Of a DNA stretch of 40,183 bases, positions 35,503 to 37,552 are shown piece after piece (positions within the stretch are counted from its first letter, which is position 1; each line of letters begins with the position of its first letter). Source of the stretch: Salinivirgaceae bacterium (lineage in GTDB: Bacteria > Bacteroidota > Bacteroidia > Bacteroidales > SZUA-534); assembly GCA_030620515.1 (NCBI GenBank), contig JAUXEM010000009.1, forward strand, positions 1 through 40,183. Direction: 5' to 3'. The position numbers and the translations under genes were made by a program. Below the pieces are notes generated by a model, which was not told the DNA's origin, made no database searches, and saw only the letters and a list, made by a program, of their open reading frames with translations.

Positions 35503-36393
35503 TTAATTATTTCTACTTTGCCTAAACAGAATCTCTTTTTCGCCTTTTGAAAGACTCTCGTAGCCCGACTTTGCAATTTTTTCTAAAATCTGATCTATTG
35601 TTTTTTGGTCGGTATTTTTTCTTGCATTGTAATCAATATCAGTCTCACCACGCTTATAACTTACTTTTAAATTCGATTTTGGCTTAACCCAACTAGCAAA
35701 GCCATCGAGTGTTTTACCAAAGCCCTTTGCAATATCTTTGCCTTGCTTAAGCTGCCTAATGTACAAATAGCCAAAAGCAGCACCACCCACATGAGCAATA
35801 TGTCCGCCAGCATTCCCTTCGGTTAAAAAAATCACATCGAGTGCAATAGATACCATTGCTAAATATTTTAGCTTAACAGGTCCAAGAAACATTAAATAAA
35901 TAGTGTAGTTGGGAACATAAACCGCCGTAGCTACAACAATTGCCAAAACGGCAGCAGAAGCTCCAAGAGCATATGAAAATGGCACAACATCGGAAAACAC
36001 AGGAAATACATTAAATGATAATATATAAAGCATTGCTCCGGAAAGACCTCCAAGTAAATAAACATTTAACAATTGCTTACCAGTTAAATATTCCAAAAAT
36101 ATTTTCCCTAACCAAAACAACCACAGTATATTAAAAAGCATATGTATAAATCCCTGATGCAGGAACATATAAGAGAAAACGGTCCAAGGTTTATAAATAA
36201 GCTGCGATAAATCAGCAGGTACTGCAAGCCATTCTATTAAAAAGTTAGCATCGCCTAATCCTAACAAATAAAATACGGCATCAAAAACCTTAACAACAAT
36301 AAACACTCCCAGATTAATATAAATTAACCTAGTCAACATGCTTCCTTCTTTAAAGGTTTTTTTTATCTCGTCGATTATTCCGATTCCTGTCAT
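35503..36393 (-). CDS. Rhomboid family intramembrane serine protease
   Basis: A 296-residue protein with six spans between residues 22 and 215. Catalytic Ser146 is in YALGASAAVLA and His201 in HIAHVGGAAFGY, with the oxyanion-side HxxxN motif (HMLFN, 84-88). The usual GASGA is GASAA here. The C-terminal tail (225-296) holds a soluble helical segment ending YESLSKGEKEILFRQ, similar to the DUF6576-type extension of Bacteroidota rhomboids. It cleaves single-span membrane proteins within the membrane. A second rhomboid lies 328 bases upstream across a repeat. Confidence 0.91.
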   Translation of the reverse strand: MTGIGIIDEIKKTFKEGSMLTRLIYINLGVFIVVKVFDAVFYLLGLGDANFLIEWLAVPADLSQLIYKPWTVFSYMFLHQGFIHMLFNILWLFWLGKIFLEYLTGKQLLNVYLLGGLSGAMLYILSFNVFPVFSDVVPFSYALGASAAVLAIVVATAVYVPNYTIYLMFLGPVKLKYLAMVSIALDVIFLTEGNAGGHIAHVGGAAFGYLYIRQLKQGKDIAKGFGKTLDGFASWVKPKSNLKVSYKRGETDIDYNARKNTDQKTIDQILEKIAKSGYESLSKGEKEILFRQSRNN

Positions 36394-36423
36394 GGCTAAA
36401 TTTCTATTTTATTATTTTACTTT

Positions 36424-36675
36424 CGCCCTTTCAGGGCTTATTTAATTCCTATATTATTAAATAGGGCGCTGCCCTATCCTAATGTTTTTTTTCCCTTTCA
36501 GGGCTTGTTTCAATTTCTCAATAATAGAACTACTTTATCATATCTATAGTCGTTAAGGGCAAGCCTTGTAACACAATAAAAATGCTAATTCTTGCTCTGA
36601 AAGAGCATAAGCACTAACATAGGGCAACGCCCTATGAATTTAGCCTACACAAAAACCTCAGCCCTGAAAGGGGGC
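36424..36675. repeat. Mosaic inverted repeat of REP-like units between the two rhomboid genes
   Basis: Left half: CGCCCTTTCAGGGC (36424-36437), ATAGGGCGCTGCCCTAT (36461-36477), CCCTTTCAGGGC (36493-36504). Right half: GCTCTGAAAGAGC (36594-36606), ATAGGGCAACGCCCTAT (36619-36635), GCCCTGAAAGGGGGC (36661-36675). Each unit is itself nearly palindromic, and the right half reads roughly as the reverse complement of the left, in reverse order of the outer units. A small extra stem, AAGG-gcaag-CCTT, sits between (36555-36567). G/C content is far above the surroundings. The layout recalls REP/BIME elements. It fills almost the whole 328-base spacer 36394-36721, which has no gene. Confidence 0.8.
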
Positions 36676-36721
36676 AAGCTATGTTTAGAATATTATTTCT
36701 ATTCGCAGCATACTGCTTACG

Positions 36722-37552
36722 CTAGAATTTATCATATTTACCAATGCCTTTGCTACTCCAATATTTAATTAAAAAGTACCCAAAAATCATTCCTCCTAAA
36801 TGGGCAAAATGGGCAATATTATCACTCGAACGCGGCATTAAAACAGCAAAAAGTTCAATAGCACCATAGCCAATTACAAAATACTTTGCTTTAATTGGAA
36901 TTGGAGGAAAAAGCAACATTAGTTTTGTATTTGGGAATAACATACCAAATGCAAGCAATACTCCAAACACAGCACCCGAAGCTCCAACAGTGGGAACATT
37001 AACGGTTATCTCATATACTTTCTTTGTCAACTCCGTAGCTTCTCTTATATACGATGCATTATTAGGATTCAGACTATATGCTGAAATAAACTCATTTACT
37101 CCTGCTGAAGCATTTGGTAAATGATCACGAATAAAGCTTAATAATAAATCTGGCGAAGGTGTATTTGTGAATGCTGTAATATCAGCTTGCAAACTAGATA
37201 AACTGTAATAATTAACAGCACTATGTAACACTGCAGCACCCAGCCCAGTAACAAAGTAATAAATTAAAAATCTTTTCGGCCCCCAAACCATTTCTAGCAT
37301 CTTACCAAACATGAACAAAGCAAACATATTAAAGAAAATATGTGTAATACTACCATGCATGAACATATGTGTAACAAACTGGAATGGTTTAAAATATGGC
37401 GATTGAACATTATGCAAGGCTAGCAATCTAGTTAAATCAATACCCATTCCTTGCAGCACATAATCAGCAACAAAAACAAGAACATTAATTATAAGTAAAT
37501 TCTTAATTACCGGTGGAATATTACCAAATGGTGACGAACGAAACGGTTGCAT
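36722..37552 (-). CDS. Rhomboid family intramembrane serine protease
   Basis: A 276-residue rhomboid. Catalytic Ser192 is in VGASGAVFG, His251 in AHFAHLGGMIFGY, and the HxxxN motif is HIFFN (71-75). It differs from the first copy by an insertion of about 65 residues between spans 3 and 4 (about 118-183, Asn/Ser-rich), which is likely periplasmic or cytoplasmic loop. It ends after the sixth span with a short basic tail, lacking the helical extension of its neighbour. Its start is 10 bases from the mutL stop, so it is probably translated from the mutL mRNA. Confidence 0.92.
   Translation of the reverse strand: MQPFRSSPFGNIPPVIKNLLIINVLVFVADYVLQGMGIDLTRLLALHNVQSPYFKPFQFVTHMFMHGSITHIFFNMFALFMFGKMLEMVWGPKRFLIYYFVTGLGAAVLHSAVNYYSLSSLQADITAFTNTPSPDLLLSFIRDHLPNASAGVNEFISAYSLNPNNASYIREATELTKKVYEITVNVPTVGASGAVFGVLLAFGMLFPNTKLMLLFPPIPIKAKYFVIGYGAIELFAVLMPRSSDNIAHFAHLGGMIFGYFLIKYWSSKGIGKYDKF

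Follow-up and report, generated by a model that had tools for sequence, protein, structure and literature searches.

A REP-like doublet of three-hairpin units between two rhomboid genes of a Salinivirgaceae bacterium and its probable relation to IS200-like HUH transposases

Introduction

The REP/RAYT association is a model for the coexistence of a domesticated transposase with its own repeat population. Such pairs have been defined mainly in Proteobacteria, by the presence of a GT[AG]G tag. For TnpA-Y1 subclass 1.2, no REP has been listed, and its members generally have no typical IS200 ends (PMC6006769).

Here we analyze a window of 40,183 nt (the whole stretch of DNA presented above), in which the spacer between two co-directional rhomboid genes is filled by short hairpins. 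A sequence-only reading of the window had offered three explanations: a REP/BIME-like element, a non-autonomous element mobilized by a RAYT located elsewhere in the genome, or a stable RNA structure in the rhomboid mRNA. We consider it probable that the hairpins of the spacer are a REP-like doublet belonging to a Y1 HUH transposase, brought in by insertion and non-autonomous.

Results

Two outward-facing three-hairpin units fill the spacer

The element spans positions 36424–36679 and consists of two inverted copies of one H1–H2–H3 hairpin unit, facing outward. Homology to the repeat reaches 36679 on the right side, slightly beyond the point where the sequence-only reading had ended it. Its features, the bordering genes (both with a Pfam Rhomboid match) and the correspondence to family A, a repeat of the host genome described below, are as follows.

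35503–36393, minus strand: rhomboid gene 1 (Rhomboid and DUF6576 domains), downstream in the direction of transcription
36424–36529, minus strand: left unit, TIR (terminal inverted repeat) remnant–H1–H2–H3, homologous to family A positions 1–104
36425–36437, minus strand: left hairpin H3, GCCCTGAAAGGGC, with a 5-bp stem and a GAA loop
36461–36477, minus strand: left hairpin H2, ATAGGGCAGCGCCCTAT, with a 7-bp stem and a 3-nt loop
36492–36504, minus strand: left hairpin H1, GCCCTGAAAGGGA, outermost pair broken
36511–36529, minus strand: degenerate TIR TTCTATTATTGAGAAATTG (family A: TTCTACTTTACGAAGTTG), adjoining left H1; assigned by alignment and TIR consensus
36530–36582, no strand: centre, no homology to the unit, containing the imperfect palindrome AACTACTTTATCATATCTATAGTCGTT
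36583–36679, plus strand: right unit, H1–H2–H3 and the tail GGCAAGC, homologous to family A positions 17–109
36594–36606, plus strand: right hairpin H1, GCTCTGAAAGAGC, the usual family A form
36618–36636, plus strand: right hairpin H2, CATAGGGCAACGCCCTATG
36661–36673, plus strand: right hairpin H3, GCCCTGAAAGGGG, outermost pair broken
36722–37552, minus strand: rhomboid gene 2, upstream in the direction of transcription

Read directly from the sequence, the six short hairpins form two mirror-image groups of three, as had been recognized, and the 87–89 nt between the groups agree with the earlier figure of about 90 bases. Each unit is laid out as H1, about 12 nt, H2, about 22 nt, H3 and a tail, with hairpin loops of 3 nt of the GAA or AAC type. 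The two kinds of palindrome distinguished earlier do exist; their assignment needs correction, in that all four CCCTTTCAGGGC-type hairpins belong together as H1/H3 and both ATAGGGC..GCCCTAT hairpins are H2. The G+C content stands out, as had been remarked, at 61% in the hairpins versus 34% in the flanks and 39% over the whole element. The two units are inverted and able to pair with each other, as in a REPIN-like doublet.

Short palindromes are common, and one might ascribe the arrangement to chance or to base composition in a genome rich in AT and palindromes, an explanation that retains practically no probability and is already refuted. With up to two mismatches, GCCCTGAAAGGGC occurs at 4 sites in the 40-kb window, all of them within the spacer element, against 0.29 expected; none of 100 shuffles reaches this number. 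Alignments to the 221-nt family A score far above shuffles, at 78 for the left unit (shuffle maximum 38) and 94 for the right (shuffle maximum 32). We built a covariance model of H1–H2, termed R1, without the left copy of the window; this held-out unit is recovered at 36460–36506 with an E-value of 4.5e-8, and the right unit, which was included in the model, at 36592–36636 with an E-value of 7.2e-15.

The rhomboid spacer grew by insertion

In relatives from the same family, the Salinivirgaceae (G001, G003, G005, G009 and G011), the orthologous rhomboid genes are separated by 10–21 nt, compared with about 330 nt in the host. Because of this difference, we conclude that the spacer grew by insertion, and that the fold does not belong to the conserved parts of the rhomboid operon. 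An exact empty site was not found among the close relatives, nor was a clear target duplication found flanking the element, whose outer ends carry no TIR such as would mark, with a matching target duplication, a miniature inverted-repeat transposable element (MITE). A 9-bp direct repeat, ATTTCTATT, lies on both sides at 36400–36408 and 36695–36703 as a possible, weak target duplication; with a shuffle p of 0.018 we did not find it convincing and did not adopt it.

These spacer lengths bear directly on the idea that the hairpins act at the RNA level, as an attenuator or structural RNA within the rhomboid mRNA under selection for its fold. The predicted fold of the spacer strand is strong (−79.1 kcal/mol, z = −5.2 versus shuffles), the genes are co-directional, and the family-wide covariation described below would suit such a role. 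However, the relatives manage with spacers of 10–21 nt, copies of the repeat lie between unrelated genes of either orientation, two of the window hairpins carry uncompensated changes at the outermost pair, and a search of Rfam returned sub-threshold chance matches, none at the gathering score. The earlier suggestion of an mRNA structure is thus not supported, and we rate it as very improbable; any effect of the repeat on rhomboid expression is probably incidental.

Host copies are dispersed, and many lie within a TIR element

Searching the host genome with R1 gave 35 matches, so that the units are not confined to the spacer, a point on which the sequence-only reading had made its case depend. 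The H2 pattern occurs at 20 sites, versus 1 for the reversed control, and all 21 units examined are intergenic (outside ORFs of 80 aa or more); many intergenic palindromic copies are also a trait of canonical REPs.

About a dozen host copies hold the units inside family A, an element with a 221-nt consensus in which the TIR TTCTACTTTACGAAGTT is followed by H1, H2, H3, H3′, a diverged H2′, H1′ and the inverted TIR. The units inside face inward around a long central palindrome, and the ends are 17-bp TIRs with 4-bp target duplications. Complete copies have identical 4-bp flanks, e.g. TTAG, TTAA, TTAC or CTAC; matching flanks were found for 6 of 11 host copies versus 1.3 expected by shuffling (p = 5e-5), and the corresponding figure for copies in other genomes of the order is 9 of 12. 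With TIRs and matching 4-bp duplications, family A in the host has the marks of a MITE. No autonomous insertion sequence with TTCTACTTTACGAAGTT ends was found: a 3.8-kb TIR pair in G102 contains no recognizable transposase ORF, and in other genomes the contigs break inside the TTCTACTTTACGAAGTT-ended repeat.

Several further repeats share parts of this organization. Related hairpins (GCCCTTACAGGGC, AGCCTGAAAGGCT and CCAAGGGCAACGCCCTAGG) occur inside the longer repeats of a family B (L006, L009, L010, L011, L012 and L015), the ends of which differ from those of family A and are, e.g., TTAGAGCCTGTCC-like. The TIR TTCTACTTTACGAAGTT and the 4-bp duplications recur in several families of the order but enclose other hairpins there (L335–L342, L344, L215, L171 and L219); one such hairpin, GCACCAAAGGTGC, lies inside miniature elements of G191 and G088. 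It is as if one TIR element took up different REP-like units.

Pairing is maintained across the family

An alignment of 84 units, fitted to the model structure and thereby favouring pairing, contains double-sided changes at 12 of 13 pairs and 127 covarying cells, versus 27 in shuffled alignments and at most 20 with the partners slid; the figure of 127 is generous because the alignment was fitted to the model. A MAFFT alignment of 15 units points in the same direction. Mismatched cells, counted as a guide to which strand folds, are more often G-U (47) than A-C (12), a difference that inherited copies and model bias can explain, and by columns the two are equal (8 versus 8). Family-wide selection for pairing is supported, which upholds one half of the earlier argument that the fold rather than the sequence is selected. 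The other half, that the right-hand GCTCTGAAAGAGC had drifted with compensation, does not hold: since GCTCTGAAAGAGC is the common, family-typical H1 of family A, it is not an independent event. Changes left uncompensated, named beforehand as evidence against a selected fold, do occur in the window, where the outermost pair is gone from 2 of the 4 H1/H3 hairpins (36492–36504 and 36661–36673).

The GT[AG]G tag of canonical REPs is found at the foot of H1 in 1 of 59 units and at the foot of H2 in 1 of 59. Directly before the H2 stem, in the H1–H2 spacer (alignment A3), an invariant A lies within TA[AG]C, of which a simple match is present in 30 of 59 units. This motif resembles YTAN, the target duplication seen with the TIR elements, and is possibly guide-like.

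In relatives, the units flank IS200-like transposase genes

R1 units were detected in 21 of 60 relatives, with more than 100 in G035. In this genome and in G057, arrays of units run straight into a gene whose protein product is IS200-like and about 150 aa long. With one such protein (P0001) as the query, we examined 93 distinct transposase genes from relatives, all IS200-like and of the HUH type, and found units flanking 34 of them. The association follows relatedness to the query: units lie within 150 nt of 25 of the 36 genes with at least 50% identity (on both sides in 19), of 8 of 16 with 44–50%, and of 1 of 41 below 44%. On the protein tree the flanked state is clustered (17 changes versus 27.8 when shuffled, with a minimum of 20), and in the first 60 genomes the presence of the clade goes along with that of the units (10/14 versus 11/46, p = 0.003). 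Nearest units are oriented toward the transposase gene in 53 of 55 cases, at a median distance of 55 nt, and in most of 13 loci inspected H3 with a GCGCAAGC-like tail lies between H2 and the gene. The window units have the same H3 end, and a tail similar to that of these flanking units.

As a control, 29 rhomboid loci (108 kb) yielded one weak R1 match, of 19 bits. A model-free comparison, which asked for inverted flank matches of at least 12 nt, gave 79% for the closest genes, 41–50% for the others and 4% for the rhomboid controls; the more distant genes thus tend to have inverted repeats of other sequence. At one locus of a single-contig genome (L248; G231:C1 near 1393683–1394979), the unit–gene–unit cassette is apparently tandem, with a period of 847 bp.

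The flanked proteins match Pfam Y1_Tnp; both of the two tested exceed the cut-off of the NCBIfam IS200 equivalog, and their similarity to ISHp608 TnpA in the PDB (E-value 4e-10) covers the HUH and tyrosine motifs. Among the 93 proteins, Y---Q--HH is present in 89 and DH[IV]H in 66. Judged by motifs (DHIH, WQ and Y---Q--HH), length and the conserved tail, the flanked genes fit TnpA-Y1 subclass 1.2 (PMC6006769). At the level of sequence comparison, a dispersed intergenic family, its absence from the orthologous site of relatives and its flanking of a TnpA-Y1 clade on both sides are established, and the earlier proposal of a REP/BIME-like, transposase-linked element is borne out to this extent: the units are dispersed between genes, form inverted doublets and flank IS200-like HUH genes in relatives.

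These observations also weigh on a rival account, in which the window copy is a decayed TIR miniature element and nothing else: two adjacent family A copies would each have been stripped of the outer half, so that an inside-out pair remained whose hairpins are passive cargo, with no role for a Y1 enzyme. The left half indeed aligns with family A over the whole stretch between its first TIR base and its centre, the halves stop at nearly the same point, family A positions 104 and 109, at the long central palindrome, and TIRs and 4-bp duplications are clear in the host copies. Yet the right half has no recognizable TIR, and H1–H2–H3 with the same end and tail stands beside transposase genes, where the TIR TTCTACTTTACGAAGTT is absent near all but one. 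Since the same unit end occurs there without a TIR, the point at which the homology stops is also where the unit naturally ends. We regard this account as unlikely.

The host assembly has other Y1 genes with other repeats

The host assembly, 96.5% complete, has four Y1_Tnp matches, and none of these genes has the units of the window beside it, in contrast to a canonical REP with its cognate gene. The cognate gene is therefore absent or unassembled, and the view that a RAYT elsewhere in the same genome mobilizes the units is not sustained; a transposase flanked by these units in the same genome was met in relatives, e.g. G035, G057 and G011. In view of the missing GT[AG]G tag and the lack of a cognate gene in the host assembly, we speak of a REP-like doublet rather than a canonical REP.

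The four host matches are of several sorts. At L017 the Y1 gene is accompanied by hairpins other than those of the window. One further gene is probably divided between the ends of two contigs (L018:1400–1742 on G000:C258 and L204:1–200 on C126) and has the hairpin GGTGCAGAGCACC on both sides, making another gene–repeat pair of this kind. The C126 fragment was considered as the cognate gene and rejected, since the C258 gene probably has its 3′ end there and the fragment carries GGTGCAGAGCACC. A second RAYT (L020:780–2150, G000:C21), above the cut-off of NCBIfam REP_Tyr_transpos, has repeats of its own on either side, GGGTCACGAGGCATCTTGCCTCG and TATTCGGCTAGAAGCCGAATGACCC, a third hairpin type. 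The remaining match is a Y1_Tnp (HUH) domain embedded in frame, between two parts of the methylase domain, in a type IIG-like restriction-modification protein (L019:112–3297, G000:C290; Pfam Eco57I, TaqI_C and MmeI).

Discussion

We interpret the spacer feature as a REP-like doublet that would have depended on a Y1 HUH transposase. By analogy with what has been proposed for RAYT and REPINs (PMC3116915), the transposase would recognize the mini-hairpins in single-stranded DNA, and may have moved or amplified the units in trans. A second route is provided by the TIR miniature element, with its 17-bp TIRs and 4-bp duplication, in which many host copies lie and which is presumably moved by a DDE-type transposase. 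On this interpretation the window copy is an old derivative of this pool, with one degenerate TIR left beside left H1, and now decaying. The polarity speaks against the interpretation as a whole: the window doublet faces outward, whereas the units beside transposase genes, like those of family A, are directed inward. Taken with the TIR remnant, this outward polarity would also be compatible with two adjacent family A elements as the source.

We further envision, tentatively and at somewhat less than an even chance, that a new REP type of Bacteroidales, with three hairpins and free of the GTAG tag, has TnpA-Y1 subclass 1.2 as its cognate enzyme, and that conserved TIR miniature elements captured these REP doublets, so that the resulting elements can spread by two independent routes (HUH single-strand and DDE).

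Comparison with known systems

The units resemble REP, BIME and REPIN sequences with their RAYT (TnpA-REP) in being short intergenic palindromes, in forming inverted doublets, and in lying around a Y1 HUH transposase gene with many solitary copies elsewhere (PMC3116915, PMC3733652). They differ in having three hairpins with 3-nt loops and no GT[AG]G tag, and the transposase has Y---Q--HH where RAYT has Y---NP. The transposase resembles subclass 1.2, which shares the length of about 150 aa, DH[IV]H, WQ, Y---Q--HH, the conserved C-terminal tail, the occurrence in Bacteroidetes and the low copy number; the 2018 survey lists no REP for that subclass, whereas here a large clade, assigned by motifs, has inverted three-hairpin arrays on both sides (PMC6006769).

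Family A, with TIRs, a 4-bp target duplication, about 220 nt and no gene, resembles bacterial MITEs such as those of Porphyromonas gingivalis (PMC4596501). Unlike in those elements, its interior holds inverted REP-like units of a Y1 transposase, and the window copy has no intact TIR pair or clear target duplication. TIRYT and TIRtrons likewise combine a Y1 gene with flanking inverted repeats that are also present elsewhere (PMC3733652), but here arrays of hairpins form the flanking repeats, and next to the transposase genes the TIR TTCTACTTTACGAAGTT is absent, with one exception.

A search of the open literature for the sequences of the units and of the TIR gave no bacterial report. What appears to be new, as far as sequence can tell, is a subclass 1.2-like Y1 family tied to a three-hairpin repeat; miniature TIR elements that carry REP-like doublets are new as well. 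The stereotyped, tag-free three-hairpin repeat is a candidate substrate for a subclass previously listed as repeat-free, and the composite element, with REP-like units inside TIRs, suggests that mobile DNA of two different kinds can fuse.
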